A stretch of DNA of 64,000 nt from Chamaelirium japonicum (taxonomy: Eukaryota; Streptophyta; Magnoliopsida; Liliales; Melanthiaceae), in contig OX393552.1 in the NCBI GenBank assembly GCA_947650365.1, forward strand, positions 18,688,351-18,752,350, in the 5' to 3' direction. The notes under the pieces were generated by a model. The model was not told the DNA's origin, ran no database searches, and saw only the letters and a list, made by a program, of their open reading frames with translations. A program made the position numbers and the translations under genes. This document shows positions 20,487 to 60,700 of this stretch, piece after piece (position 1 is the first letter of the stretch; every line of letters begins with the position of its first letter).

Positions 20487-23400
20487 ATGGTAATTGTGAA
20501 CATAAACATTTGTGGATTTGTTTTGACTTTGCTGATGAGCTGAAACCAATTGAGTTATGTTTTTTTGAAATAGAGCTTCAACGAAGGGGTCGAGAAGAGC
20601 CCGATATTAGTGGGGCCTTGGGGAGGGCGAGGAGGAAACCCATGGGACGACGGGGTGTACACGACGGTGAGGCAGCTGATGGTTGTCCATGGAGCCGCGA
20701 TCGATTCCATTCGAACCGAGTATGACTGGAACGGGAGCTCAGTTTGGTCGGACAAGCATGGCAGTGATGGTGGCGCCAAGAAGGACAAGGTCAGTAGGAA
20801 TTGTTGCATGGTTTAACCAATTTATCTACTTTCTCATTGTTAACGGATAGTCCCATATCGGTGAGGGAGGCACCCATCACCCGCTTTATATACCCTCTGT
20901 GGACCTCCCCTTACAACCCGGGTATCTAACACTTGCAAATTCTAGATTGCGCATTGATAGATATTTCTTAGGTTCACCTTGCGACTCCTGTTTTGATGCC
21001 CTTTTCGTGCAACCAAGTGTTATCAAAAACTCTGATTTTTTGAATAAGTCTCGATTATAACACGACTTATTCAGTAAATATGCGCTTCACGACTCTTTCC
21101 CGATTTTTAAAAAAAAGTCACGATTTTCAGGTTTTAATCCCGATTTACCCGTTTTAATTCAGATTCATTGCTTTATAATCTCGTCATGGATTGCTCAAAA
21201 AACCTATTGTAACATCTATATATAAAATATGTTCTAAAATTTTACCATTTGTTTCCTTACCTTTCTGACTTTTCTCCGATTTGTCCGACTTCTACCCTAA
21301 TCGATTTTTTTTTTCAACTTCTGACTTGGTACCTATGATCCACACAAGAGGGATTTCTCAAAAAAGAAGAAGAAATATGTTAGTTTAAGTGTAGAAATCT
21401 CTATATCCTAACTTCTTGCTCTTGAAAGATTATCTATATTCATTAACAACCCAGACAGAGTCATCAAGCTCACTGTGTTTTGTATAGTTCCACATTTCTC
21501 AGGTACAGCTTGAATATCCACATGAGGTTCTCACTTCAGTAAGTGGTCACTATGGATCGCTCTCGAACGGGAGCCCTACTGTCGTAAGATCATTAACATT
21601 TGAGAGCAACTGCGCAAAGTATGGACCTTTTGGCTTTGAACAAGGAATGCATTTTTCATTACCGATGAGCGGTGGCAAGATCGTCGGTTTCCATGGGAGA
21701 TCAGGCCTGTATCTTGACTCCATTGGATTTTATTTAAAGCACCTTTGGAGCCCAAAAGCTTTGATTCCATCAGAAAGTCGAAGTATGGACTGTACTGATA
21801 AAGTTGGCTATGGCGTCGCCGAGGGAAGCATCAGCCCAAAGTATGACATAGTGTTTGCAGTAAGAGAAAGGGCAGACAACTTCAATGTTCTACCAAACAA
21901 TTATAAAGGGGAAGCCTCTCCTGTGAAGGAGTTCAGAAATGTGGATCATAAGAATAGGGTATGGCATCTTTCCCACAAAGGCTACACTGCACTTAAGCAA
22001 TGTTAAAAAACTCAAAACTCGGACTCGACTCGAAAGCCAACCGAGTCGAGTGAACTCGGTCCGACTCAGCCAAATAACTCGACTCGAAATCTGGCCTAGT
22101 CGAGTCGACTCGGTCTGACTCGATCGAGTTTTAAAAAGTGCACTTAATTATGTTCTGGATCTCGTTATACCTTATAACGTACCGTAATCTCCATAAAAAT
22201 AGATGCAAACAGGCATGGGCGATGCTTATCTTAACATACGATTTCTTCTTGAATATTCTCGACAATTTCCATTTGTTTTAACGAACAGATTTACTTGTTG
22301 GCATAGGTAAATTCTTTCAATTTCAAATCTATGACGCATCGTGTGGTGGCTAAGGATTTTTCGTTCTGCATTCTGTACATTTTATGCACCTACTAATTTT
22401 GAGCACCTACCAAATTTAGTCCTTGCATGGAAATGTGTTATTTTAGCAGATTTTGTTTTTATTTTACTTATTTATTAGCCTAATTTGGGAATGTTGTTTC
22501 ATTTCAGCTCCTTGGAATATAATTTGTGTCACATAGATGAATGTAATTCCTTATATAAAATCTTGCCTTTTACCCTCTTTGTCTAGACACTTTCCTAGTC
22601 TATAGGGATCCTTTGGGGTTGCTCCTTAGTTGCATGAGCTTAAACTCCGTAATCAATGAGGTAGGCATATGGTGGAAGGACATTGATGTAGGCAAGGGCG
22701 GGCCTAGACTAGGTTATGGAGAGATTTGGGGAAATTTGGAAGTTGGGACAGGCAGGGGTATTTTCATATTTTTAGGGTGTTCAGTTTTTTCGATCTTGAT
22801 GAAAATTGGTGGGGGTGAAGGTCTTGATATGAGGAAGGACTGGTCAAAGTTTGAAGGTGATCGAATCACTCGATCTAATGTTATGACTGAAACTGTGTGG
22901 AGATTTTATAAAACAACAAGCACAATTTTATGTAAAAAGAGGCTAAGACAAGTCTGCAAGGGCCACGATGATCCGATTAATTATAATGACGATCATGGAT
23001 TTTAATGGTCTTTAAAAGGAGTGAATGAAAACGATTATTGGAAGTGGAAAGGTTGCAAAAAACAATTAAAAATAATGGAGAATGATGCGGATGCAAAAGA
23101 AAAAGAAGGAAGAGAATAAATCACACCGCCGCGGATTTATAAGGAATTTCCCAGGGGATCCTACCATTCCTACGTGGAGAAATGTCGTCGATCAAAGTCG
23201 TCGGATCTTTCTATTCGCTAACCGATACCACTCCCAGAGACAGACACTGATGCTTCTCGAGGTGGAGTAAGCCCTTTTGGGCTTATCTTAAAAGCTGGTA
23301 GAGTTTTAAATAAGACCCATTAATTGTCACATCATTTAATTATTTAAGTTGTGATGATCTAACCGTTGGATCGAGTTCTAAACTCGACATTCGGGAGCTC

Positions 23401-26400
23401 TGTTGAACCCTGTAGCCATATTTTATTAAATATAAAGCTGGAAACTCATCGAAAAGAGCCCAGAATGATCGGATAAGCCCTCGAATGAGGTCATGACATC
23501 CCCGCACAACAAGGCAATAACCAAAGCGATAAATAAAGCTAAAAATGACCAAAAATAGCATAAACGGCTTAATGAATAAAAAAACTGATATAATAATGTT
23601 TTAAAGAATCTTGATGCAGATCAAGCCTGCATTAAATATGTAGATGGTCCAGTTGATACAATCCTCCCAGTTTGCGACCAATCCTAGTCCACCAATCGGT
23701 ACGCGGATTCTGCACAGAACAAGATGAGGTAGCAAATACGATGGTAAATCCAGAATAGAGGCTAGATTGATGGATAGATGAGGAACATAGAGAACTGAAG
23801 AAAAGGATAATCAAGGAGAGGAGGTAGCTCTACTCCAAGAGACAGGGAGAGGTATGTCATCAACAATGTGTATTTGAAATTGGGAAGGAACTGAAGAGTA
23901 GTTGGAGAGAATGGTACCATCATAGAGTAGCTACTAGTGCCAGAGGTCGTGATGGTGATCACCGCTATGAAGAACAACCGAGCGGATGTCGAAGGCGTAC
24001 TCCCATCAATGTGACCTACACATCGCATGCCTGAAGGTTGGAGCGAACTTCGAAGTGTTAGAGAACAATATCAAACTTAGAACATAGATACTTTAGGGAA
24101 CAATTAGAGCGAAAAATCTTACTCTGCTTCTGATACTGAGTATAGATGACGTCGGTTCGTTGGATTGAAGGAATCTCAAAGGAGAAGGCGGAAAGGAGAG
24201 AAAGGAAGAGAGAAGAGCCCTTAGCTCGGATACCGTGAAATCAAGGAGCACAAAATGATTACTAAATTGGGCATAAAGCCAAAAGACAGTATGCATATAT
24301 ACAATAAGGGTGTGAATGGACACCAACAAAGTGAGCATACCACACAAAAGATGATGAGAAGTAAGACCGCTAACACTAATAAGTGGAACCTATGGGGACC
24401 TTCTAGGTTTGATCATAAGGAAAATTTGGTTAATCAATAAGAATGTCCTATTTACAGTGTTGCGATTCCCATGCCCTCCCAAAACCGGTAATGAGAGGGA
24501 GGGGGCAACAGTATATAAAGATGTGAAACTCCCACCCCTTTACTGATGTGGGACTATTCTCAACACCTGCCCGCACGCAGAGCGCCTCTCGATCAGAGGG
24601 AGGAAGAAGATCTCGATCAGAGGGAGAAAGAGGGTGCGACGGGACCACATAGAGGAGAGACGGGGTGGGACCTAGCTCTGATACCATGTTACGATTCTCA
24701 TGCCCTCTCAAAACCGGTAACGAGAGGGAGGGGGCAACAATATATAAAGATGTGAAACTCCCACCCCTTTACCGATGTGGGACTATTCTCAACACACAGG
24801 AACCACTTAACCTTCCATTTCTTTTCATTTCTCATTTTTTTCTCCATTCATGTTACATATCTTTATAGTATGGAACATACATAACATTGCACTAATTATA
24901 AGTTATTTAGAGTTGTCATATTCAATTACACATCAATTACAAGTACATGCCATACTCAATTACACATCGATTACAAGTATATGAACATGTATGCATTGAT
25001 TGATGGATTTCATTCTTGCAGATGGTGTCTTTTCCGAGCTACACTGTGGAGAAGGGATCCTCAACCTTAGGAGGTCCTATAACACATGGTCCTTGGGGTG
25101 GTAGTGGTGGAACCATATTCGACGATGGCATATATACGGGAGTTAGACGGGTTAATTTAACACGCAACGCAGGAATCACTTCAATTAAGGTCCAATATGA
25201 CAGAAACGGGCAGTCGGTATGGGGAAACAAGCATGGAGGAAGCGGAGGAATTATAACTGACAAGGTGAGGAATTATTACATTGGCATTTCCTAAGCTGCT
25301 CATGTTGGAATTAAACTTTACTCGCTCGTTTCGCAGATAATATTTGATTTTCCCTTTGAGATCTTGTTATATATAACTGGTTATTTCGGAACTACGCTGT
25401 TGATGGGGCCAACTGCGATAAAATCACTCACATTTCACACTACAAAGAGGAAGTATGGACCGTATGGAGACGAGGAAGGTACGCTCTTCTCTTCTCGCTC
25501 GGCAGCTGGGATTGTAGGAATTCATGGGAGGAGTGGATGGTGCATACATAGTATTGGAGTTCATTTTCTTGAGGGTGAAGTGTCTTCGCACCAATCTCCT
25601 GCTGTTGATCCAAACCGAGGAAGTGATATGATGAGCACCAAGATGGATGATTCTCACTGGTCTAATAATCTGATTCTTGCAAGGAGAGGGATTGGACAAG
25701 CGGTAAATAGCCTTTAAAATCATCCTTAATTTGATTTCTCTTCAACTTGATATCAGCGCAAAAGTTGAAAAAAAAATCAGCAAACAAATTTCTTTAGCTT
25801 GCAGTGCCAACATAGATGATCCTTCAACAGAAATGACCAGCCAAGAAGGATTCATAAAGCCAACTCCAAATAGCTGGGAAAAGGCTTGATGGTTACTGTC
25901 AATGTGTTAGTTCTTAATCTTGAGATTTGCTCTCCGAAACTTGCGACATTCAGGTTACCTATGGTGTGGTGAAAGAACCAGTTCCAAGTGGACTCGGGCC
26001 ATGGGGTGGAGATGGCGGTAAGCCATGGGATGATGGGGTGTACTCAGGAATCATGCAGCTTCATATCACAAGAGGAGAAGCCATAAACTCGATACAGATC
26101 GAGTACGACAGGAGCGGCCAATCAGTTTGGTCTGCAAGACATGGAAGCAAGGGGGAGACCGCCCATCGGGTACTAATAGAATGCTCGATTTTCGATATTT
26201 GAACTGCCCGCCATCGATCACGATCGATCGCTAATCGTGTCAACTCCGCAGATCAAATTCGAGTACCCGAACGAGGTCCTGAACTGCATGAGTGGCTACT
26301 ACAGCAGCATCAATCGAGACGAAGGGACGAAGGTGGTGAGATCGCTTACATTCTACACTACTCGAGGTAAGTACGGGCCATTCGGTGAGGAGATAGGAAG

Positions 26401-26548
26401 CTACTTCAGTTCGACGACGGAAGGGAAGGTGGTGGGGTTCCACGGCAGGGGTGCGCTGTGTTTGGACGCCGTTGGGGTCCACATGCAGCACTGGTTGGGT
26501 GGCAGAAAACCCAACACCAAGTATTTGGTTTCCAAGTATCTATTCTGA
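20487..26548 (+). CDS. Triple-jacalin-domain mannose-binding lectin (JRL3-like), 7 exons
   Basis: Predicted cytosolic carbohydrate-binding lectin of the mannose-specific jacalin-related type; 598 residues, no signal peptide. Coding exons: 20487-20489 (ATG alone), 20574-20789, 21503-21958, 25022-25264, 25337-25702, 25954-26169 and 26252-26548 (TGA). All are phase 0 with GT-AG introns. Each domain is encoded by two exons. Domain 1 is about residues 13-153 (VGPWGGRGG, WDDGVYTTVRQ, KIVGFHGRSG, YLDSIG). Domain 2 is about 241-385 (HGPWGGSGG, GIVGIHGRSGW). Domain 3 is about 437-580 (LGPWGGDGGKPWDDG, VVGFHGRGALCLDAVG). Length and layout match Arabidopsis jacalin-related lectin 3. Domain 2 has lost the usual tryptophan in IFDDG, and domain 3 has ALC instead of GWY in the sugar-contact loop. 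Introns 2 and 3 carry transposons. Confidence 0.93.
20838..20931 (+). repeat. Solo LTR resembling a TRIM LTR (lectin intron 2)
   Basis: TGTTAACGGATAGTCCCATA...GGTATCTAACA, with internal CTTTATATACC. TAGTCCCATATCGGTGAGG is close to the TRIM LTR at 24458-24794 (reversed ATAGTCCCACATCGGTAAAG). No target duplication is evident. Confidence 0.5.
21009..21338. mobile_element. Degenerate hAT-like element (CGATTT/GACTT word), lectin intron 2
   Basis: AGTGTTATCAAAAACTC at the left and (reversed) GGTACCAAGTCAGAAG at the right, with CGATTT/TCTGACTT words between. It matches the reversed element at 26765-27013, including the segment around ACGACTTATTCAGTAA. No clean duplication. Confidence 0.45.
21998..22140. 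mobile_element. Mini hAT-type element (GACTCG word), 143 bp
   Basis: Ends CAATGTTAAAAAACTC and (reversed) CACTTTTTAAAACTCG. It is flanked by CACTTAAG (21990-21997) and CACTTAAT (22141-22148), 7/8. The body is almost wholly GACTCG/CGAGTC words in both orientations. It begins 39 bp past the lectin exon 3 donor. A transcript retaining intron 3 stops at TAA inside it (22004-22006). Confidence 0.75.
22149..23629. other. Lectin intron 3, unclassified repeat DNA
   Basis: No gene or bounded element recognised. The 22610-23000 open frame has no known motif. Bases 23130-23560 have a composition suggestive of an old LTR, but no partner copy is present. Confidence 0.35.
23630..24456 (-). pseudogene. Copia remnant (gag-protease fragment plus LTR)
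   Basis: On the minus strand, 23632-23730 encodes VQNPRTDWW and LGGLYQLDHLHI, the GAG-pre-integrase motif seen also at 13430. Garbled protease sequence follows to about 24030. At 24223-24235 a worn primer site (reversed CGGTATCCGAGCT) abuts a candidate LTR at 24236-24456 with TG...CA ends. Multiple stops and shifts. Confidence 0.6.
24458..24794 (-). mobile_element. TRIM (miniature LTR retrotransposon), 337 bp
   Basis: Two 108-bp direct repeats, 24458-24565 and 24687-24794, with TGTT...AACA ends and about 95% identity, enclose only 121 bp. On the minus strand the LTR is followed by TGGTATCAGAGCTAGG (24686-24671), the initiator-Met tRNA primer site. Flanks TACAG and CACAG are a near-perfect 5-bp duplication. 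Each LTR has a TATATAAAG box. No coding capacity, so it must move in trans. Confidence 0.9.
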
Positions 26549-42700: not shown

Positions 42701-45700
42701 AGGAAGAGCCCATGGATGAAGCTGATAATAAGCCAAAGGGAAGCATAGAGAGTATTTTTGGGAGAACCTAAGGAGGATCCCGTGATGGAAGTCGTGGATG
42801 TGTACTCTTTTTCGGATGACAGTCTAAATACACGCGTACTAAGTCTGCTGACAATAATAAGGGGGTGCTAGTCAAGTGGGATTTAAAATCATTGTTCAGG
42901 AGTCTGTAGACTTGTGGGCTTTGGGAGTCCGCAGACTTTTTTTGAAGAGTCTGCAGATTTTTTTTTAGGAGTCTACAAAATTTTTTGAGGAGTTTACTAT
43001 ATTAGAAATACCCTATTACAGGAGTTCACATGGGCTTTTTTGTGCACTTGGATATTGTAGACATTGAAATATTGCCTAAAGCCAGAAAATCGACAATTTG
43101 GCTAAGTCTGGAAGACTTTATTTCCCTGATGACCAGGGAAATTTTGCTTCCTTACATTCTGAAATATGGTTAAGTCTGGAAGACTTTATTTCCCTGATGA
43201 CCAGGGAAATTTTGCTTCCTTATACTTTATTTCCCTGATGACCAGGGAAATTTTTCTCTACACTCAGAAATTTGGCTAAGTCTGGAAGACTTTATTTCCC
43301 TGATGACCAGGGAAATTTTGCTTCCTTATACTTTATTTCCCTGATGACCAGGGAAATTTTTCTCTACACTCAGAAATTTGGCTAAGTCTGGAAGACTTTA
43401 TTTCCCTGATGACCAGGGAAATTTTGCTTCCTTATACTTTATTTCCCTGATGACCAGGGAAATTTTGCTTCCTTATACTTTATTTCCCTGATGATCAGGG
43501 AAATTTTTCTCTACACTCAGAAATTTGGCTAAGTCTGGAAGACTTTATTTCCCTGATGACTAGGGAAATTTTGCTTCTTTATACTTTATTTCCCTGATGA
43601 CTAGGGAAATTTTTCTCTACACTCAGAAATTTGGCTAAGTCTGGAAGACTTTATTTCCCTGATGACCAGGGAAATTTTGCTTCCTTATACTTTATTTTCC
43701 TGATGACCAGGGAAATTTTTCTCTACACTCAAAAATTTGGCTAAGTCTGGAAGACTTTATTTCCCTGATGACCAGGGAAATTTTGCTTCCTTATACTTTA
43801 TTTCCCTGATGACCAGGGAAATTTTTCTCTACACTCAGAAATTGACTAAGTCTGGAAGACTTTATTTCCCTGATAATCAGGGAAATTTTTCTTGCTTCCT
43901 TACGCTCTGAAATTTGACCAAGTCTGAGAGTAGGAAAGTACTATATCCCTATCGTCCAAAGGCTATATCTAAGTCAATAGAATGATACTTAGAGATGAGC
44001 ATCCTTTGACAAGCCGATATACAAGGCCGAAGAATAATCAAGCTTAAGCTCCTACAAATAAGCTTACGCTAGATTCGACAAACTCGTTGAATCCACCAAG
44101 TCAGAAAGGACCGGATCAAGAGTTAACTTTGTTAAAATCTGAGTCGCAGTAAGTCGACTCGGATTTTAAGACCCGAACCATAAGTCGTTTTAATCAGACC
44201 GGTTCACTCAAACTCAAAAGGATTAAACTACCGGTGGAAGTTATAAAACCACCTGAATATGATCCTAATCATCAAGGAGTTATGTAAACCACCTGGAAGT
44301 TTCTCTAACCATCCAAGGGAAGTTATAGAAACCACCAGGAGGTTGCTTCAACCACCCGAAGTAGTTATTCTCTACAATAACTACTTCGACCCTTATAAAA
44401 GGAGGGACAAGAACAGAAGAAAGGGGATCTTTGGCCATAGAAGAAGAACCCACAAAGCTTTTGACTGAAGATATTTCAAAGCTCCAAGAAATCCCGGAGA
44501 AGAATGATCGAAGATCGAAGCAAACCAAAGAAAATCGAAGACCGAAGATCGAAGAAGAAGATGGAAAATTGAAGATTCAAGTCCAAAGCAAGTCGAAGAA
44601 CGAGCGAAGAACAAGTGAAGATTCTAGGAGAAGAAGAGTAAAGCAAAGCCCCTAGCCGATCACGTGCAAAGCCCGGAAGGATCAAGCATCGCAACGCTCT
44701 CCTCTTTTCATTTTCTCACTTGTAATCTTTGTACTTCGAAATCGAGTATCAAAGGATCAAAGACGGATTTTCCCGCAATCTCTTGATATATTTTGTACTC
44801 CGCTCCCTCGAAGCGAGTCCTTTGAAATTTGTACTTGAGTGAAAATTCAAATATTTGCTCATACAAATATTTTGGCACGCCCGGGGGGACATCCGTCTCC
44901 TTTCATCCCTCCATTTCGTTGGTTCTCATACTCGAAGTTTTCTTCCTTACGAAGAATTCTTCTAATTCAAGTTTTCAACATGGTCGGTATCGGCGATGCT
45001 ATGGTCGTTCCCGTCACTATGCCCGTTGTTGAGTCAAATACACTCCAACAAGGCAACCAGGAGAATGTCACCACGAATGCTAATGTTTCGGCATCCGAGG
45101 AGGCCCCTGCACTACGTGTCTACACTAGGCGCAAGAAGACTACTTCTTCAGTTATACCTGAAGTCGAAACCGAGGGAGATCTTATGCACTAAGGAACTCG
45201 GGGTGAGAGACGAAGTAATCTTCAATCCAGATGGTCATGTGGACGCTGTTGTTCATCATGACTATGTCTCGGAAGACGATGTTGAGACTCTCGAGGCACG
45301 CCAGGAAGTTCGCCCAAATCCTACTAACTCCACAATGATTAAACTTGAGGAGGAAGTACAACAAATGAGTCAACTCATGGCTCAGATGGTCCAGACAATG
45401 GCAGAAAAGGATCGTCAAATCAACAGTCTTCTCCAAAAATTGGGTACTAAGGAAGAGGCTTTGGTTCCTGCAACAACCAAGGCCCTCCCCACGACTACTC
45501 GGACTTTGATGCCACCGATGATCACTTCTCCAGAGATAGGTGCAATCATGCCTACATCTTCACCTATGACTGTTGAGCAATTACAGTCTATGGTTGCGAG
45601 TATGATCCAAGCAAGGCGAGACGGATTTTCTAAGTCCACAGTAGGGTACACCAAGCCTTACTCCCAACGTATCCAAGACTTACGCTTTCCAGCAGGATAC

Positions 45701-48700
45701 AACCCACCCAAGTTCCAGCAATTCGAAGGAAAAGGCAATCCAAAGCAACACATTGCCCACTTCATAGAAACTTGTAACAACGCCGGCACTTATGATGATG
45801 AAATGATCAAACAATTCGTTCGGTCTATCAAAGGGACCGCATTCGAATGGTATGTAGACCTCACTCCGGGGTCTATCGATAGCTGGGAACAATTAGAACG
45901 GGAGTTCCTCACTCGGTTCTACAGCACTCGACGTGTGGTGAGTATGGTGGAACTTACTGCTGTCAAGCAACGCAAGGATGAGAAGGTCATAGACTATATT
46001 GATCGATGGAGAAACCTTGCTCTCAACTCACGAGATCGACTCTCCGAGTCTTCAGCGATAGAGATGTGCATTCAAGGAATGCATTGGGGATTGCTCTACA
46101 TTCTCCAGGGAATCAAACCCAGCTCCTTCGAAGAATTGGCCACACGAGCTCACGATATGGAGCTTAGCTTGGCCACTCACGGAGATTCCAAGCCAAGGGA
46201 CTTTTCGAAGTCTAAGGCAGACGGCAAAGAAAAAATGTCAGCCCCAAAAGCAAAACAAACAAATGTTGTAAACATCGCTTCTTCTTCCAAACCCTTGAAG
46301 ATGAAAGATAAACCAGACAACACCAAGCCTACTCCTGAGTCTTCATAGCAAAGGCCACCTCGGATGACCTTAGAAGAGCTTCAAGCGAAGAAGTATCCAT
46401 TTCCAGATTCAGAAGTTTCAGCCATGTTTGACCAACTCTTGGAGGAGAAGATGATTGAAATACCGTTATCAAAGAGACCAGAAGAAGCAAATAGAGTTGA
46501 TGATCCTTTATATTGCAAATATCATAGGGTCGTGAGTCACCCTATCGAAAAATGTTTTGTGTTCAAAAAGAAAATCATGTCGTTGGCACGTCAAGGAAAG
46601 ATTGAGTTGCCTTCTGATGAGATAGTCGCAACTAACATGACATCCATTGTTTTCGGTTCTCATCCACCAGTTCAAATTCCAGCAGCAAGGAAGAGGCTAG
46701 TTTTCAAGATAAAAACTTCAGCCCTCCTCAACAAGCAACATTCTTCAGTAAGGAGGCATATGCATGTTACTCAGGTTGCAAGCTTGGGGGCACCAGAACT
46801 CAGAATCCAGATGTGCAAAAATCAGATCAAGAGTTGTGAAAGTCTACCAACGAAAGAAGCCCCCTTGCCTCCAAAAGAGAATGACTATTCCCTTGAAAAA
46901 GAGGATTTGGAACAGAAGGATGGATGGACCTTGGTGGTTCGAAATAAAAGAACCCCTCGAGCCCCTCTCCGTAAAGTCTCTCCCATAATCTTCGATAAGT
47001 CTAAGGTAACGAGAGAAAAGACTTACGTCAAGAAGTCTTTGAAGAAGAAAGGCCAAAAGAAAAGTATGCCTAAAATTCTTACAGTCAATGATGAAGAAAT
47101 ACTACATCAAGCCGTCCGGCGACCTCTTACACTAAAAGACTTCATTCCTGAAGATTTCTTCGAAAATGATTTATCCTCTTCGTCAACTTGCTATACGGCA
47201 GAAGTCCATGAGAAAGAATCAAATGAGGAACTAACTCTTCAGCCTCCAGAAGTGTCAGATAATATACCTCCTGTTGAGCCGATCGAAGGAAACCTCGCAG
47301 CTACTTATGATGAAGCTATGTTACATTTGCCACTTATAGAGGCTTTCCATCTTTCGGAAGATGCACGCCACGCTATGGCTGCGGCATTGACTGACCCAGA
47401 GAGTCATCAAGTGAAGACTAATGAAGAAAAATCAGTCCAATGTGATATGACTATCTCCTTCTCTGACGAAGATTTGCAGTTGGGAGCACGGTTGCACAAC
47501 CGACCTCTTTATGTTTCTGGTTATATCAATGAAAAACCAGTAACTCGTATATTGATAGATGGCGGATCGGCTGTCAATATCATGCCTAGTCAAACCATGA
47601 AGGACTTGGGCATAAAAAATGATCAACTTTCCAGAAGCAAATTGGTCATTCAAGGCTTCAACCAAGGAGCACAGTCAGCTGTCGGCATCATACGCTTGAA
47701 GTTGTCAATCGGAGAACTTGACACTATGACTCTATTCCATGTCATAGACTGTCAAACCTCTTATCGACTCTTACTTGGAAGACCTTGGCTGCATATGAAT
47801 AAAATAATGCCTTCAACATTACATCAATGTTTCAAATATCACCAAGGGGGCATTGAGAAGTGTGTTCTGGCAGATGATAGACCATTTAATGAAGCAGAAG
47901 CTTATCTCGCTGACGCCAAATTCTACCACAGTAAGGGCTCCGTTATCAAGGAAACGTCACCTACAAATTTTCTCCAAGAAACAGAGGCAAACGAAGTGAC
48001 TCCATCAGTCAGGGTCTCTCCAAACCCTCCAACCCAACGTCATACGATGTTTGGTGATTGCGAATGTGACGAATGCCTTGAATAGGCTCTGGAATTGGAA
48101 TACGAAGATGATGAAGATCAGCGAAGGAAAAACAAGAAGTCATCACAACAATCTCTCAAACAAAGATATGAGAACGGTGACCCAGAAGTAGGTCTACTTG
48201 GCCAACCTTCAGGGAAATTCGATTTTTATGTCCTTTATCCGAAGAAATCAAACCAGCAAGCGGTGCCAGTTCAAATGAAGAGTATCAAAAGAAAACAGAA
48301 GGTTAATAAATATCCCTCAAAAATGGCTGAATCTGCTCCGGTGTTAAGTTTCGTACCACAGAGAGGCCGAAAGATAGGACAGCCACCATTCACTCCTATG
48401 CATACAAAGCCATCAACCTCTTTTACAGATGCTAATTTGGTCACTTTAAAAGAAGACTTGGTATTGCCGCTGCACAGCCTAACATCAGCTACTAACTCAA
48501 GTAAGGGCAACTCTACATTCAAACCAGAAGGAATATGGGGAAGCGAAGCATCAAGTCTCCTGAGCAAAGCTGAATTCACTCCAAAAGATGTTGAACGTTT
48601 AGGTACATTACCACCACGAACAGCCCCTTACGGTTTAACTAAAACCCAAGAGCGGCTCTTCTTGGCTGGAGAAAATATACCACAAACTCGACCTGGCATT

Positions 48701-51700
48701 GGAGCCAAGCAAATCCCCATTGTGCTCAAAACAAGCGCAAAAGAAACTATGTCCGCAAACGTCATTGAAGCCCAAGATGAAGAAGACTATGCAAAAGATT
48801 TATATGATGCAGATGATGATACAGTAGAAAAGAAGTATCTCGGTAACACAGATGAAGACTTTCAGACATTGTCTAAGTCAGCAAGAAGAAGGCGACGACG
48901 TGCAAAGAAGAAAGAAATACTTATGGCACAATATGAGATGCCCGATGTACATCACCAGTTAAAGCCAAACCGAACTTCAGTCTTTGAGAGGATAAAGAAA
49001 ACAAGAATCAGATCTGAAATCGTCAAAAATAATCATCCACGACAATCAGTCTTTGACAGACTTGAACTTGGTTTCGCAAAGCCCTCCCGCCCACCCAGGT
49101 TTCCTCATTCTCGACATGCCAAAATCTCCTATGGTCATAGCGGGTCTTTTCAGCGTCACAGTCTAACCTGGCATCGAGTTCCGCCTCTTCAGGATGTTCC
49201 TTTGACAATCAGTATCGATGCTACTTCTGACTCTACTACCAATTCTGCATGTTTGAACGCATCTTCTTCCTCTGGGTCGAAAAAGAAAATCGTTGTATCT
49301 GTCAATCATATTTCTACTGACTACATCGATTGCTCGTCTTCTTCTTCGGACAGTGACTTAGCTAATGCACCTCCAGTTCTTGAAGAAGGGGGGCAGTCCA
49401 CTGTGGATGATTTAAAAGAAATTAATCTCGGCACTGAAGAAGAGCCACGACCGACATTCGTCAGTTCTCTCCTAACAACGAACGAAGAAGTCGAGTATGT
49501 CAAGCTTCTCCAAGAATACAAGGACGTCTTCGCTTGGTCTTATAAAGAAATGCCAGGTTTAGACCCCAAAATTGTTGTTCATCAGCTTGCCGTGAAACAT
49601 GGTGCTAATCCTATCAAGCAAGGCCAAAGAAGATACCACCCAGAACTTATCCCACAAATTGAAGCCGAAGTGAACAAACTGATTGAAGCAGGGTTCATTA
49701 GAGAAGTTAAGTATCCTACTTGGATCTCTAGTGTTGTATCCGTGAAGAAGAAGAATGGGCAAATCAGAGTATGTGTCGACTTCAGAGACTTGAATAATGC
49801 ATGCCCCAAAGACGATTTCCCTTTACCAATCACCGAACTTATGGTGGATGCTACAATGGGATATGAAGCTCTATCCTTCATGGATGGCTCCTCAGGATAC
49901 AATCAAATTCGAATGGCACCCAAGGATGAGGAACTCACAGCTTTCCGCACACCTAAGGGCATCTTTTGTTATAAAGTAATGCCTTTTGGACTGAAGAACG
50001 CAGGAGCTACCTACCAACGAGCTATGCAACGGATCTTTGATGACATTCTTCACCAAAATGTAGAATGCTATGTTGATGATCTAGTCGTGAAGTCTAAACA
50101 AAGGTCTTCGCATCTGAATGATTTGCGTGCTGTCTTTGAAAGATTAAGAAGATATCAACTACGAATGAATCCGCTTAAATGCGCCTTTGGAGTTACATCC
50201 GGAAAATTCCTCGGTTTCATCGTAAGGCATCGAGGCATTGAGATAGACCAATCTAAAATTGATGCTATTCTCAACATGCCCAACCCTAAGTCACTTCATG
50301 ACCTTAGAAGCTTACAAGGTCACTTGGCTTATATCAGGCAATTTATAGCCACCCTCTCCGGGAGATGTCACCCTTTTCACCAGCTCATGAAAAGGGATGC
50401 TATTTTCAAATGGGATGAAGCATGTCAAAAGGCTTTCCAAGATATTAAGGACTATCTCTTGAAACCACTAGTTCTGACAGCACCCACTCCAGGGATATCC
50501 TTGATACTTTACATAAGCGCACAAGAACACTCTCTGGGGGCATTACTTGCACAAGAAAATGAATTTGGGAAGGAAGTGGCTTGTTACTATTTGAGTCGTA
50601 CTCTTGTGGGGGCAGAGTTAAAGTATGCTCCTATAGAAAAGATATGCTTGGCCCTTATTTTTGCCACAAAAAAGTTAAGGCATTATATGTTGGCTCATAC
50701 CATTAAACTTGTATCTAAAGCAGATCCCCTCAAATATATTATGTCAAGACCTGTTCTATCAGGAAGACTAGCAAAATGGGCTCTACTCTTGTCAGAATTT
50801 GATATCATCTTCACTCCCCAAAAAGCAGTTAAAGGGCAAGCCTTAGCGGATTTCTTGGCTCATCACTCCATTCCTGCTGATTGGGAGTTAACCGAAGAAT
50901 TACCAGATGAGGAGGTCTTCTTTATAAACGTAATCCCTTCTTGGGAAATGTTCTTTGATGGAGCTGCAAAACGACAAGCTGTGGGGGCAGGGATTGTTTT
51001 CGTTTCACCAAACTCTGAAACTCTCCCATACTCTTTCTCATTGGCAGAGCCTTGTTCAAACAACAAAGCAGAATACCAAGCATTAATTATTGGTCTTGAA
51101 CTTGCTCGGGACATGAAACTTCAAGGGTTACGAATATATGGTGACTCCAAACTCATCATTCATCAAGTCTTGGGAGATTATGAAGTCAATAAGGAAGACC
51201 TCAAGTCTTATCATGAATATGCTCTTACTTTATTCAACAGCATCGAAGCAGCAAGCATTCAACATGTACCAAGAAGTTCGAATCAACAAGCTGATGCATT
51301 GGCAAATCTAGCAGCATCGCTTGCTATTCAAGACCTTGACCAATTAAATATTCCAGTTTGTCGAAGGTGGATACTTACTTTAGAAGATCAATTCAATCAG
51401 GCTATAGGCCAGAAAAATGAAGATCATTCCTATGTCATTGAAGAACAAGACTGGAGACAACCCCTCATTGATTACCTTGAGAGTGGCAAGCTCCCTAAAG
51501 AAGTTAAACACAGAACTGAGATAAGAAGACGAGCCCCCAAGTTCTTACATTTCAATGGTGAATTATATCGTCGAAGCTATGATGGTACACTTATGAGGTG
51601 CTTGACCGGAGAAGATATCAAGTTTGCTCTCCAAGAGTCACATTCAGGCATATGTGGTACTCATCAGTCAGGGCCGAAACTTCACTTTCGTATCAAAATA

Positions 51701-54700
51701 ATGGGATACTACTGGCCTACCATGGTTAAAGATTGTTTAAACTTTTCCAAAAAGTGTCATGCATGCCAAATCCATGGTGATTATATTCCTCAGCCGCCAG
51801 AACCACTTCATCCTATAGTCGCTTCATGGCCATTTGACTCTTGGGGACTTGACATAGTCGGTCCATTACCCAAATCTTCTAAGCAGCACCTTTATATTCT
51901 AGCGGCGACAGACTACTTTTCCAAATGGGCAGAGGCAGTCCCTCTCAGAGAAGTGAACCGAAATTCAATCATGAATTTTATTCAAAATGATATCATCTTC
52001 CGATATGGAGTTCCTCGTTGCATCGTTACTGATAATGGCAAGCAATTCAAAAACGCTGCTATGGATAATTTCTGTGCTAAGTATAAAATCAAACAGAGAT
52101 GTTCTACAATGTATAATGCTCCCGCCAATGGTTTAGCAGAAGCTTTCAATAAGACCTTATGCAAGCTCTTGGAGAAGGTGATTTCTAAATCTAAAAAAGA
52201 CTGGCACAAGCGTATGCACGAGGCTCTATGGGCTTATCGAACATCGTTCCGCACTCCGACTCAAGCAACACCATATTCCCTTGTGTATGGAGTAGAGGCG
52301 ATTCTACCTCTAGAGCTTCAAATTCCTTCTCTAAGAATTGCTATCCAGGAAGGTCTTACTACTGATGAAAATGCTCAACTCCGACTTATGGAATTAGAAG
52401 CTCTAGACGAGAAAAGACATGAGGCTCAGCAACGACTTGAATGCTATCAAGCTCGTATTTCTCGAGCGTTCAATAAAAAAGTTAAGCCTCGCTTTTTCCA
52501 AGAAGGGGACTTGGTCCTAGCAGTGCGACGTCCCATCATCTTATCCCACAGAGCAGGAAAAAAATTCGATGCTAAGTGGGATGGCCCGCATGTCGTCAGA
52601 GAAGTTTATACCAATGGAGCATATCTACTTACGACACCAGAAGGACAACTTGGCCCAATCAACGGCAAGTTCCTCAAGCGATATTATGCATGAAGAAAAT
52701 CACTCTATATTTGCAAATGATAGTCCTGATAGATGTGGGTGCCAACCTAGTTGGGATGCATATCGATCAAGGTGATGCAAGTAAAAAAAAAAAATCCCAA
52801 AGGAACTACGTGTGACTTGATCCCTTGAAAAAGGGTACGTAGGCAGCCTGAGGAAACCCCTCAGGTTCAGTCCAAACAAAAAAATATAAAACCCATATTC
52901 AGCAGAGCAATCAAGAAGGAAATACCAAGCGAATTCATATATTGCATAAGTCTTAAACAAAGTCTAAAAAAAGAAAGTACAAGGCTTAATAATCAATAAA
53001 TCGAGCTTAAATCCCGAAGACGCTGCATAAGTTCCTCTCGTGCGCCATCAATAGCTAAGACAGAAGATGCCCCGGCTTCCCCTTGACCCTTAAGTTCGGT
53101 CAGTTCCTTCTCTTTTTCAGTCTTTTGTGCCTTCAGGGAGTTGAGGTAATTATGTTGTAAAGTCACAGCATCAAAAGCTGCAGCCAAACGATTTTCGCAA
53201 GAAATAACCACCGCTTTAGCCTCCTCCAATGCTAAATGAGCAGCAGTTTCCTCTGACTTTGCGGCTGACAGTGTAGAATCACCCTCGTTTAAGAATTGGG
53301 AGAACGACTTTAAAGTCTCTTCTATCTTTGCTATATGGTCTGGACTAACAATGGCCTTTTCTTTGACAAACGTTGAACGTCGGTTATGATAAGCACGACT
53401 GTCTTGAAGAAGTGATTCGATCCTTTCAACAAATACAGAATCGTTCACTCCGAATTTTCGAAGACGATCACAAAAGATAGCACCCATATTGGTCCACCAC
53501 TTCTCTAATGCTGAAAATCCCGCTTGATGAAAGGGCTTCAGTGAGCAGTCTATGAATGACCTGCAGGGAACCAGCATGATAGTAGCCAAAGAGCGGTCCA
53601 TCTCCTCAACTGAACCATGCATGAATCCAGTTGCCTCAGACATAGCTGGACTCATCCCAGCAATCGATCTCGGCTTTTTGAAAACAGGGACCTCGGCCTG
53701 AGCTTTCTGACATACCAAAGAAGATTGAACTTCATAATCTACTGGTGTTGTGGAAGGACCTGCAAGTTCTTCAAACATAGAGTCACCCACTATTTTTTCT
53801 GTGGTCATTTCAACGGTTACTGATGCCTCGTGATTTTTTCCAACACCCTCATCTTGCAAATCCTGGAAAAGGGGGTATGTCGCTTCAAAGGCATCATCCT
53901 CCAATAATCCTTTGCCAATCACTTCAGTTAGATCATCATTAGGAATGCAAAGGCCGCCAGCAGAATACCCTATACAACAAAGCAATAGGGTAAAACATAC
54001 AGTAATCATTAGTATTCAAGGATTACAAAAGGAACAACTTATACCTGAAGTAGTAATATCAACACCTTGAGTTGCCACATCAGGAGGAGAAGCTGCAACA
54101 AGAGCAGTCTCCAGTATTTGATGCCTCGATCCAGTAGGGGACGTCGCAAGAGGATTAATGATCTCCCGAATAGAAGAACTATCCTCTGACGTTCTTGCCC
54201 TCTTCCTGGCACCTCTTTCATCTCCCTGTCGCTCAGAAGGTACGGCTAGACGAACAGGACGCTCAGAAGTGCCCGAACAAGAAGACTCAACCTCTTTGTC
54301 AAATTCTGTTCGGCGATGGCACGCTCGTGAAGAACCAGGACGAGAGTTCTTTTGGAATCGAATCTCCGTCCTATCTCTCATACCTTCATCTTTTTTAAAC
54401 TCAAACGAGTTTTTCTCGCTTGATTTTAGCATAGAAGCAGGATACATAGCCAATCGATTCTTGATTCCCCCTCTTACTAAACTTGAATATACTGAAGATA
54501 CACAGTCTCTGAGGTTTACTTCTCGTAACGGGAGAGCAAAACTAACTCCAGTATGCCTCTCACTGAATGCTAACCAATAACCAAACGCTAACGTTGGAGA
54601 CACTTCTTCCTTATAAGGGATAGGTGTTCCAGATATCGTTTGCATAAAACATTGTTGACGAGAAAACCGATGAGGACTATATTGTGCTATCTGTACCATA

Positions 54701-57700
54701 TTACCCCGACGGAATACAAGAAACCCTGGTTTACAGCTCAACATTAAGAGGAAGATGGAGTATGACATCTTCGCATTATCATAAAAAATGCCCTTTTCTC
54801 TATCAGGGATCGGCTTCCAAGCTTCATTGGCAAAACGAAAATCAGCTTCTCCCATAGTACGAAGAATCATTCTAGCGTCTTGAGCTGACCCTTCCCAAGG
54901 CTGATAAGCTGCCAGAGCACCAGATACTGCTATGAGGAAAGGGAATCTCCTTTGCCGAAGATTCTTAGCAAATATCCCTCTTGGAAAGTGAAGTCCGATC
55001 CACCCATATAAGTAGTGAAGGGGACAAAAGGAACTCGCCCGACCTAGCTCACCACTGAACTTGGGGCTTGTAGACAGACTGCTGTAAGTCCGCGTCAGAC
55101 CGTTGTAGAGTAAGCATAATATTAGAACAACCAAATTGTATTCGGTACCTTTCACCATATTTACAGCTGGGATGAAAGTACCAGGACGAATCAAGTCACC
55201 ACTCCAAGACAGGGCGAACTTACAAAGAAAAAGAACAATCGCCGCAGACCTATAGACAATCTTCCCCAAAGTGCTATTGGCTGACAATCCAAGTAAAACG
55301 TAAGGACTGGGTTTCGATCCAGAAGGTCATTTCTCTGGAGGCATAAGACTAATTGGCCTATCAATATCTCCTGATTGGTCAAGTTTAGCTTTGGCTTTCC
55401 TTATGATATCAGTTTTCTGAGAATTAACAGCTCGAGGGTACCCACGAAACCAAAAATCAATCCAGTCACAATGCCAAACTCGGTCACTACGGCAAGATGC
55501 AGCAATAATTGCAAAGGCTTTGAAAAGATAAGAAAGTGCTGAAGGAGTATATACACAGTCGAAAAGTTCAAAGAGATTAGGAACTCTCTCTTGGTAATAT
55601 TCTCCACTCATGAGACAACCTGATATCTGGAAGAAGAAAAATGAAAAAAAAAGTAAGCCACACGTATGAATGTCACTCAAATTCAATTTCAAGTATATAC
55701 CTGATAAATCTCCGACAAGGAAATCCCTATTTCCCCAATAGAAGTGAGGAATGTATTTGTTTCTGGACACCAGAGCTCACACAAAGCTCTATACATTCCA
55801 TCAGGCCTACAATATTCATAACAAGCAAGTTCCAGCATAACAGATATGTTTCTAGTAGCCTCCCGGCCACGCAAAGCTTCGAAGACTTCGCGCATCCATT
55901 CACCGAAACCATTGAGATACTGGACATCGCCACGACCTCGTATTTCCTCACCCCATCGAGTGAATCTTGAAGCAATTTTTGAAGCAATTTGAGGAATGGG
56001 TACCATTTCAGCCGTTGTATGATGATACGGAAAAGTAAGAATCGTAGCCTTTTCAAAACGGCTAATGGGTCCAACGCTCTTCTCAGCTCCATGACTATCG
56101 CTGTCACAACTCTCATGCTCAACGATTCTCAAGGTAGTCAAAGAGTTTGGGCCATTCTTTTTCAGAGTTGCCCATGCTGCTTGCCTTTTGCATGAGGGAA
56201 AACAAGATAAGTGACCCCTCGTTCTTCTTCTTCTTCTAACCAACCATCTTCTGGCATAGCAATATATTTCTCTGAAGTACTCATACCTGCATACAGAAGA
56301 TTGGATTAAAAGTTAGAATACATTTTGCAAAAGTTGACCACCGAAAAGCATCAAATATCGAAGATCATTGCAAAGGAAGAAAAGAAGATCAAAGAACAAG
56401 CAAAATAAAGAAAAGGATCAAGAGTATGATTACTTTGAATAGATCTGATCGTTTTCTTGCCAAAGAAATCAAGCTTGCAAGATGGTTGTTGCAAAAAAAC
56501 CTCGAAGTAAAGTTTTTTGACCTAGCCCAAAGAAACACAGAAAAATAAGTTAGAAAAGGAGAGGAGACCGCATTTTATAGAAAAAGGGGGTCAAAGGACG
56601 AGCTGTACTGCCATCATAAAAAAAAAAAAAAATTTTTTTTTTTTGGCCGGCCCTGGAGGTTTCTGGCCGGCCCTAGTCAAACCTGGACGGCCCTGGCAAA
56701 AAAAAAAAAAAAGACCTGGTCAAACCTGACCGATTTGGGTAGATAAATGGTCAAAGATTATCTAGAAGTATGAAAAAGATCCAAGAATCAAACATCATGC
56801 AAGAGATAAAAAAAAAAAGAAGGTAAAAATGAGAGCAAAAATCGTTCTTGCAAAACCTTGAACTAGGGTTTCTACAAACCTAGCCGATTCAAGTAGATAG
56901 ATAGTCAAAGATCATCTAGAAGCATGAAAGAAGATCCAAGAATCAAATATCATTCAAGAGATATGCAAGAAGATCAAAAATTCAAAAAGGTAAAAGAGGA
57001 GATCAAAGATCATTCTTGCAAAACCTTGAACTAGGGTTTCGTTTTTTTTTCAAAGAGGCCCGCAAAGATCATTGCAAAAGGAGAAACGAAGATCAAAGAG
57101 CAAACAAAGCAAAGGAAAAGATCAAGATCATGATTACCTTGAATGGATTTGATCGTCTTCTTGCCAAAGGAATCAAGTTTGCGAGATGTTTTGTTTTGCA
57201 AAAAACCTTAAAGTAGGGTTTTTAGACCTAGCTCCAAAGAAATACAAAAAAATAAGTTAGAAAAGGAGAGGAGACCCCTTTTTATAGAAAAAGAGGGGCC
57301 AAAGGACGAGCTGTACCGCGCCATCCTAAAAAAAAAAAAAAAAATTTTTTTTTTGGCCGGCCCAGGAGGTTTCTGGCCGGCCCTGTCAAACCTGGCCGGC
57401 CCTGGCAAAAAAAATAAAAAATCAAAGACTGACCTTTTTCGCTTCTCGCTTGAAATGTCAATCCTTGAGAGGGCAATTTGTAGACATTGAAATATTGCCT
57501 AAAGCCAGAAAATCAAAAATTTGGCTATTGGCTAAGTCTGGAAGACTTTATTTCCCTGATGACCAGGGAAATTTTGCTTCCTTACATTCTGAAATTTGGC
57601 TAAGTCTGGGAAGCTTTATTTCCCTGATGACCAGGGAAATTTTTGCTTCCTTATACTTTATTTCCCTGATGACCAGGAAAATTTTTGCTTCCTTATACTT

Positions 57701-60700
57701 TATTTCCCTGATGACCAGGGAAATTTTTCTCTACACTCAGAAATTGACTAAGTCTGGAAAACTTTATTTCCCTATGACCAGGGAAAATTTTGCTTCCTTA
57801 TACTTTATTTCCCTGATGACCAAGGAAATTTTTCTCTACACTCAGAAATTGACTAAGTCTGGAAAACTTTATTTCCCTGATGACCAGGGAAATTTTTACT
57901 TCCTTATACTTTATTTCCCTGATGACCAGGGAAATTTTCCTCTACACTCAGAAATTGGCTAAGTCTGGGACACTTTATTTCCCTGATGACCAGAGAAATT
58001 TTTCTCTACACTCAGAAATTGGCTAAGTCTGGGACACTTTATTTCCCTGATGACCAGGGAAATTTTTCTCTACACTCAGAAATTGGCTAAGTCTGGGACA
58101 CTTTATTTCCCTGATGACCAGGGAAATTTTTCTTCCTTACATATTTGGCTAAGTCTGGGAAACTTTATTTCCCTGATGACCAGGGAAATTTTCCTCTACA
58201 CTCAGAAATTGGCTAAGTCTGGGAAGCTTTATTTCCCTGATGACCAGGGAAATTTTCCTCTTCACTCAGAAATTGGCTAAGTCTGGGACACTTTATTTCC
58301 CTGATGACCAGGGAAATTTTTCTCTACACTCAGAAATTGACTAAGTCTGGGCAGCTTTATTTCCCTGATGACCAGGGAAATTTTGCTCTCTACATTCAAA
58401 AATTGACTAAGTCTGGAAAACTTTATTTACCTGATGACCAGGAAAATTTTGCTTCCTTACACTCTGACATTTGACCAAATCTGAGAGTAAGGAAAGTACT
58501 ATATCCCTATCATCCAAAGGCTATATCTAACTCTTAGAGATGAGCATTCTTCGACAAGCCGATATACAAGGCCGAAGAATAATCAAGCTTAAGCTCCTAC
58601 AAGTAAGCTTACGCTAGATTCGACAAACTCGTTAAATCCATCAAGTCAAAAAGGACCGGATCAAGAGTTAACTTTGTTAAAATCTGAGTCACAGTAAGTC
58701 AACTCGGATTTAAGACCCGAACCACAAGTCGTTTTAATCAGACCGGTTCACTCAAACTCAAAAGGATTAAACTATCAGTGGAAGTTACAAAACCACTTGA
58801 GTATGATCCTAATCATCAAGGAGTTATATAAACCACCTGGAAGTTTCTCTAACCATCCAAGGGAGTTATAGAAACCACCAGGAGGTTGCTTCAACCACCC
58901 GAAGTAGTTATTCTCTACAATAACTACTTCGACCCTTATAAAAGGAGGGACAGGAAAAAAAGAAAGGATCTTTGGCCATAGCAAGAAGAACCTACAAAGC
59001 TCCCGACTGAAGATACTTCAAAGCTCCAAGAAATCCCGGAGAAGAAGGATCGAAGATCGAAGCAAACCAAAGAAAATCGAAGACCGAAGATCGAAGACCG
59101 AAGATCGAAGACCGAAGATCGAAGATCGAAGATGGAAAATTGAAGATTCAAGTCCAAAGCAAGTCGAAGAACGAGCGAAGAACAAGTGAAGATTCTAGGA
59201 GAAGAAGAGTAAAGCAAAGCCCCTAGCCGATCATGCGCAAAGCCCGGAAGGATCAAGCACCGTAACGCTCTTCTCTTTTCATTTTCTCACTTGTTGTAAT
59301 CTTTGTACTTCGAAATTGAGTATCAAAGGATCAAAGACGGATTTCCCCGCAATCTCGTGATATATATTTTGTACTCCGCTCCCTCGAAGCGAGTCCTTTG
59401 AAATTTGTACTTGAGTGAAAAATCAAATATTTGCTCATACAGCACCATACTTATAATTTCCAAAAGAGGATTCCTTCGAAAATTTGTTGTGCCCAAAAAA
59501 GAGAACCAAATATTGACCCATAGCCTAACTACCACAAAAATATGAAAATAAACTAGAAAATTAAAATAAAAAGAACGAATAATTTCTAACCTATTGACCG
59601 ATTAAAACCGACTTAACCCAACTATGACTTCACTCGGCTAAGATTATTAGTGGGACTCCGGTTAGCTCAACTAACCTAAATTGACTAACATGACTGATAA
59701 ACTTGAAATAACCAATTTGACTCAATAACTTAACTAACGACTTGACTAAGAGGAGTGTTTTAACTCTTAACTGATCAATTGACCAAAATACCTCTGACTT
59801 TACCTAACTTGCTTGAAAATTTTTGAAAAACATTCTGAAAAAAAAGACAAGTAAAAACTATTAGTTTTTGCAACTTGACTCAAGGCAACTCACAAACAAA
59901 ATTCAATGATGCTTAATGATACCTAAAAACACCTAATTGGATCTTCAATGGGTTAATGTATTACAAAAGTTTCACGCTAGGACTGACCCCGGATCCAGGA
60001 ATTCTTCTGCATCAAGAACCCAACTTGTTGCAGCCTATACCATTTTATTGCATCAAAGGACATGGAGAAATCTCTGTGGAACTTGCAATAATATAAACTT
60101 GAGAGTTTTATCATTCACCGAAGTCAGAACATGACGTTATTAAAATAATGTTTGTGGCCTTACATGAACACCATTTCAAAATATGTACATTCATCTTTAG
60201 TTACTTGTATCTCATGATGATGGTTCTCACTATTTGTTATAGAAAAATAAATGAATGTAACATCATTATATTAAAATATTTATTGCAAAAAAATGTAAGG
60301 TTAAATAAAATTAATTATTCCAGACCAAAAATATGGTATGAATTGACATCCACGATTATTAATACATGTTAAAAGGGAGTTTTTGACTATCAATTTCACT
60401 AAAGTAGATCTCAAGTTTTGATTATCGATTCATTAGAGTAGCTCTGACTGCCATAAATATGAGTAACCATCTGTAAAATTGTTATCTAAATATTCTTCGA
60501 GTTCGGAGTTCCCAAGAAATAGACAGTTGCAGATGAGAAACATAAAACATACAAGTGCTATTTATGAAGTACCAGATTCTGTCATGTAAGGTTTCGCTTG
60601 GCATAGAAATTCAATTTACAAAATCAAAGAACAGTAACAGAGGAACATAACATGGAATAAGACATAAGAAGCATACAACACAATTAACCGACTAAGAGAC

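Follow-up and report, generated by a model that had tools for sequence, protein, structure and literature searches.

The window analysed here is a 64,000-bp stretch of the Chamaelirium japonicum genome (GCA_947650365.1, contig OX393552.1; locus G000:C4:18688351-18752350 in the 1.52-Gb assembly), and it contains a 16.4-kb long terminal repeat (LTR) retrotransposon at 43056-59441. Between pol and the 3' LTR, this element carries a minus-strand gene for a plant mobile domain (PMD) protein, and upstream of that gene lie two similar predicted start units. All positions below are those of the window. The plus-strand gag-pol frame (44966-52693) encodes gag, protease, reverse transcriptase (RT), RNase H (RH), a second RNase H of the RVT_3 type and integrase; a profile search located RT at 553-713, the RT RNase H at 805-905, RVT_3 at 957-1076 and integrase at 1249-1344 of the pol frame. 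Ogre and Retand are likewise described with an additional RNase H placed between RH and integrase (PMC6317226), and this domain order marks the element as a Tat-type Ty3/gypsy LTR retrotransposon.

The antisense gene has three coding exons, numbered 2 to 4 behind a predicted non-coding first exon. Exon 2 (55701-56286, minus strand, ATG at 56284-56282) encodes the N-terminal part of the PMD, exon 3 (54045-55626, minus strand) its C-terminal part and a basic RKRAR motif, and exon 4 (52993-53969, minus strand) a probable coiled coil. The window copy is broken by a frame shift in exon 2 and a premature stop in exon 3. Its exon 2 matched the PMD profile (PF10536) at 28.5 bits (E 1.1e-6), under the curated cut-off of 34.9, and the other two coding exons gave no PMD match at E 0.01. 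In a second copy of the family, L014, the three coding exons join in frame into 1047 codons. The L014 open frame that covers exons 2 and 3 by reading through the in-frame intron 2 matched PF10536 at 49.3 bits, over the cut-off; the equivalent of exon 3 alone matched positions 111-294 of the profile at 23.4 bits, and the RKRAR motif was observed as well. On the L014 match we conclude that the antisense gene encodes a PMD protein. The coiled coil is graded only as probable because a weak TBCA match of window exon 4 (E 0.0085) and the heptad pattern of L014 exon 4 (8 of 300 shuffles scored as high) are its sole signals. The best match of the PMD frame to solved structures was no better than E 0.56, and a search against viral contigs gave no match. 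An earlier note, made from the letters of the window, had described a 16-kb Tat element with a three-exon antisense gene, a clear PMD and a coiled coil; the element, the gene and the PMD were upheld, but the domain is clear in L014 rather than in the window exon, and the coiled coil stands only as probable.

Both start units lie upstream of exon 2 and are read on the minus strand. The distal unit A (57065-57422) and the proximal unit B (56361-56712) each hold a GGCCGGCC cluster, a TATAAAA box (57286-57280 and 56579-56573, respectively) and a predicted non-coding first exon ending in a GT donor about 150 bases downstream of the box (57137 and 56433, respectively); unit B also has a TTTGAC box. 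The predicted acceptor AG of intron 1 ends at 56287. The two units align as a single gapped match (57421-57065 against 56712-56361) with 87.5% identity over 359 columns, and the repeat listing records the pair at 85% over 127 nt (D7) and 79% over 94 nt (D10). Thus, the two direct repeats of about 350 bp that the earlier note had reported, each with a TATA box, a GGCCGGCC cluster and a donor, were confirmed; the donors lie exactly where it had placed them, and the acceptor, which it had put at about 56291, ends at 56287. A 166/152-bp direct duplication (57040-56875 against 56872-56721, 81.9% identity) occupies most of the spacer (56713-57064, minus strand), and therefore the tandem period is about 705 bp: unit A and the spacer form one monomer, and the window pair amounts to 1.5 copies of it.

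The signals in the unit region exceeded expectation from shuffled sequence. GGCCGGCC occurred 10 times over both strands, that is, at five palindromic sites (shuffle mean 0.01, 0/300 as high), TATAAAA twice (mean 0.09, 1/300 as high) and TTGAC seven times (mean 1.87, 0/300 as high), at 56594, 56680, 56723, 56754, 56908 and 57389 and, on the opposite strand, at 56521. We take TTGAC and TTTGAC here to be the W-box core, and a stress-responsive promoter is our guess for the region. If transcription starts 30 bases downstream of the TATA box, the predicted first exons measure 119 and 116 nt. Both are free of ATG in the window, where intron 1 contains 15, so either first exon would yield the same protein. 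Transcription is predicted to begin in the units, and exon 1 to be spliced from the donors named above.

To follow the gene among copies of the family, we used a protein-found set of 98 scored matches from 2921 first-look candidates, whose counts are lower bounds, and reduced it to 30 loci including the window copy (L009). All 98 scored exon 3 matches aligned at 91-100% identity, many of them in 789-codon open frames spanning intron 2. The complete spliced frame was free of gaps, insertions and stops in 21 of the 30 loci, and in three others (L012, L017 and L032) the frame had only gaps that sum to a multiple of three bases. The GT/AG borders were present at all 30 loci for intron 2 and at 29 for intron 3, the exception being the misaligned L026; the acceptor AG of intron 1 was present at 29, L011 being different. 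The ratio of nonsynonymous to synonymous divergence (dN/dS) against L014 was 0.10-0.28 in 17 of 18 comparisons. These 18 were chosen from 54 aligned copies and represent 16 elements, as L024/L047 and L026/L040 are parts of the same elements, and loci from L039 onwards cover exon 2 plus roughly half of exon 3. The remaining value, 0.65 for L026, was set aside for its misaligned exon 4 (166 gap and 138 inserted bases); L040, which represents the front of that element, gave 0.10. Calculated per exon in four copies, dN/dS was 0.14-0.42 across all three coding exons.

Polymorphism within the family pointed the same way. Over 480 codons from exons 2 and 3 in 26 copies (L047 left out), the corresponding ratio for variants (pN/pS) was 0.36 for shared variants and 0.60 for singletons (p 0.013). 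It was 0.36 against 0.62 (p 0.008) in 27 copies with the doubled element kept, and 0.31 against 0.65 (p 0.0007) in 24 copies without L047, L026 and L061. The intact frames, the conserved splice borders, the low dN/dS and the fewer amino-acid changes among shared variants indicate that the PMD protein was under purifying selection and was maintained while the family spread. A decayed passenger gene is ruled out by the dN/dS values. The proposal that the element owns its antisense gene therefore held, and the comparison of dN/dS among copies that the earlier note had suggested favours a functional protein.

The distribution of the paired units was assessed with a 1.2-kb unit query, which gave 30 loci from 40 scored, of 212 first-look candidates, with the window included. 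Both units were present in 26 of the 30 loci, a share in which pairs are over-represented because the query itself held both units. In a tree of 64 units, 34 distal and 26 proximal rows fell on opposite sides of a branch with 100/100 support, the four single units being unlabelled; this complete separation implies that the doubling was one event older than these copies. First-exon divergence between A and B was 0.156, exceeding the divergence between copies (0.053 for A and 0.067 for B), so both units are old. In a more divergent group, paired units were found at 24 of 28 places by our count from the match listing, although many of its C12 and C10 places may be segmental duplicates rather than separate insertions. 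At about 42.7-45.1 Mb of contig C12, and with contigs C291, C229 and C204, family copies recur every 95-200 kb or so, in a pattern resembling tandem segmental duplication. A pair peculiar to the window locus is ruled out by its presence in many copies, and homogenisation of A and B by their separation in the tree.

The protein-found set gave a different picture of the pair. No proximal TATAAAA and donor were found upstream of exon 2 in 25 of its 30 loci, near-identical recent copies included; both were kept in four (L009, L013, L024 as read by eye, and L026), and L011 was unclear. With up to three mismatches allowed, a deletion junction that takes out the first exon and donor of unit B occurred at 75 genomic places (44 exact matches among them), and the proximal donor had 53 genomic matches, five of them in a single array on contig C5; both patterns under-count old, diverged copies. 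What is left of the TATA box in the deleted form is ACATAAAA in many of the diverged copies; the commonest class has ACATGAAA. Among the deleted copies whose upstream part was fetched, 8 of 8 retained a distal unit with TATAAA and a donor. Twenty-four copies of this recent burst differed pairwise by 0.9% on average and by 2.9% at most. Since the proximal deletion is carried by near-identical burst copies, and the deleted copies that were fetched keep the distal box and donor, the sequences indicate that the last-multiplied lineage spread with one usable start, and hence that the doubled promoter does not account for the element's success. The earlier note had singled out the doubled promoter as unusual; that it is the working feature is not supported. 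Its expectation of paired units elsewhere was borne out in the unit-query set and the divergent group but not in most protein-found loci, and the single-unit copies it had named as counter-evidence turned up in part of the family, at the 75 junction places.

Expansion of the same region was observed once. At C5:66775663-66803673 (L077, L079 and L078) we counted about 19 successive monomer matches in the match listing, and the first 5.2 kb, which were read, contain seven TATA boxes spaced 700-740 bases apart. A 14.8-kb unread stretch that splits one monomer looks like an insertion. The start of the array adjoins a 3' LTR (L077), and its end runs unbroken into a proximal unit, the acceptor and the PMD exons (L078), which places the array within one element. 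The number of units between pol and the 3' LTR therefore varies among copies from one usable unit, through two, to about 19.

We consider it probable that the locus represents an accessory PMD gene with its own TATA promoter, whose introns are kept through its antisense orientation and whose promoter sits within a repeat that shrinks and grows. RNA polymerase II would start in unit A, and also in unit B where that unit is intact, and the non-coding first exon would be spliced to exon 2. The PMD protein would then act in trans as an accessory factor, probably in the nucleus. The antisense orientation would preserve the introns, because the genomic RNA comes from the other strand and could not splice them. 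The doubling would be the two-copy state of a repeat-prone Tat 3' region rather than a dedicated two-promoter switch, and this region has contracted in the burst copies, which have one usable start, and expanded in the copy with about 19 units.

Several observations weigh against this account. Besides the query bias towards pairs and the under-counting of old copies by the junction and donor patterns, older copies preserve both units about equally well, which leaves room for use of the second unit. Exon 2 lay within the fetched stretch at 24 of the 30 unit-query loci and was missing from it at six; at two of those six (C9 and C16) a PMD match follows after about 5.4 kb. Finally, reverse-transcribed spliced exon 1-2 and exon 2-3 junctions gave 0 matches each in the genome with up to three mismatches.

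The strongest competing explanation, which we nevertheless regard as unlikely, is that the units are true alternative promoters for different tissues or stresses, the pair being kept by selection on regulation. The frequency of pairs (26/30 unit-query loci and 24/28 divergent-group places) and the age of both units (A-B divergence above that between copies) agree with it. So does the upkeep of the signals: the proximal donor GT is preserved in 26 of 26 units, compared with 24 of 26 for unit A, and TTTGAC lies within 40 bp upstream of the TATA box in 35 of the 38 units that are distal or single and in 23 of the 26 proximal units. The proximal TATA box is less constant, however: TATAAAA is kept in 26 of 26 A units but in 18 of 26 B units, and of the eight departures four read TATAAA and four are clearly altered. 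The recent burst without the proximal first exon and donor also argues against regulatory selection on the pair, as does the altered TATA remnant of the commonest deleted class, and the two first exons of the window, both non-coding, would lead to one and the same protein. Older copies might still use alternative first exons.

It is considerably less likely that the antisense RNA rather than the protein matters, pairing with the 3' part of the genomic RNA and dampening the element. The gene does overlap the element RNA in antisense, and such a function has been proposed for antisense open reading frames (ORFs) in PMC7264820, but purifying selection on the frame in all three coding exons is unexpected for a purely RNA function. 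It is very improbable that the gene belongs to a nested element or was captured from the host and just happens to sit in the window copy. This genome does contain many PMD genes (126 matches), and DNA transposons are reported to carry them (PMC9289625), but all 98 scored exon 3 matches align at 91-100%, exon 2 accompanies the start region at 24 of 30 loci, and L001, a host PMD copy, shows only distant similarity.

The element and its antisense PMD gene have close counterparts in published systems. Gene23 of maize Grande lies antisense between pol and the 3' LTR, has its own upstream promoter and encodes a nuclear protein (PMC7264820). The present gene has the same placement, its promoter being predicted from the TATA box, donor and ATG-free exon, and departs from the published description of gene23 by its PMD, its predicted introns and a start region within a tandem monomer. 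The Retand lineage is described with antisense TRP28 ORFs and a long pol-to-3' LTR region, often with tandem repeats, and an antisense TRP28 (PF04195) ORF was present in 97% of the surveyed clusters (PMC11963269). Our element likewise has the long region, an antisense ORF and tandem repeats, but TRP28 gave no match at E 0.01 in the window or 0.1 in L014, the LTRs, at 1.8-2.0 kb, are longer than the 315-1194 bp of that survey, and the repeat unit is about 705 bp where the survey gives 8-100 bp. In 57% of Ogre elements a PMD (PF10536) is reported in extra ORFs, a common trait there but not a defining one (PMC6317226); our element shares the PMD ORF and the very large size, the text seen giving neither strand nor position for the Ogre domain. 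In Tat/Ogre elements the stretch that follows gag-pol has tandem repeats whose copy number varies and which can grow into long arrays or satellites (PMC7004042). Here, too, the unit number between pol and the 3' LTR varies among copies, and the monomer differs from the Tat/Ogre 3' repeats so described in holding a TATA box, a predicted first exon and the donor of an antisense gene.

Taken singly, antisense accessory genes that have a promoter of their own, extra ORFs with a PMD, and tandem repeats in the 3' region are all known; the combination was not found in print, and among the listed titles and abstract openings of the open literature no LTR element appeared whose antisense gene has a tandem start module. 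We tentatively suggest that the monomer could be an amplifiable start module (TATA box, first exon and donor) and that a satellite-breeding process could set the number of antisense promoters. If so, some satellites of Tat origin elsewhere might consist of arrayed promoters of this kind. For the question of what Tat-element antisense genes do, this family offers start modules in numbers of one, two or about nineteen per copy together with a selected protein, so that promoter number, antisense RNA and element success become comparable within one genome. It also connects antisense accessory genes with satellite-seeding 3' tandem repeats, two subjects usually treated separately.

The window copy itself has diverged LTRs. 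The 5' LTR (43056-44865, plus strand) is 1810 bp long with internal 41/68/106-bp tandem repeats, and the 3' LTR (57479-59441, plus strand) is 1963 bp long with internal 42/64/106-bp repeats, a length difference of 153 bp. With the tandem arrays excluded, the Kimura two-parameter (K2P) divergence between the LTRs was 0.040, which corresponds to an age of about 1.5 to 2.9 million years at substitution rates of 1.3e-8 and 7e-9. No target-site duplication was seen when the bases beside both LTRs were inspected by eye. Two in-frame TAG codons (46346-46348 and 48083-48085) split the window gag-pol into gag, protease and RT-integrase parts, the frames remaining in phase with the stop codon alone between them. 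The tandem repeats (41/64/68/106-bp) at 43115-43897 and 57545-58450 are arranged differently in the two LTRs. Elsewhere in the window, plus-strand open frames at 21488-26548 presumably resemble jacalin-type lectins, judging from a motif.

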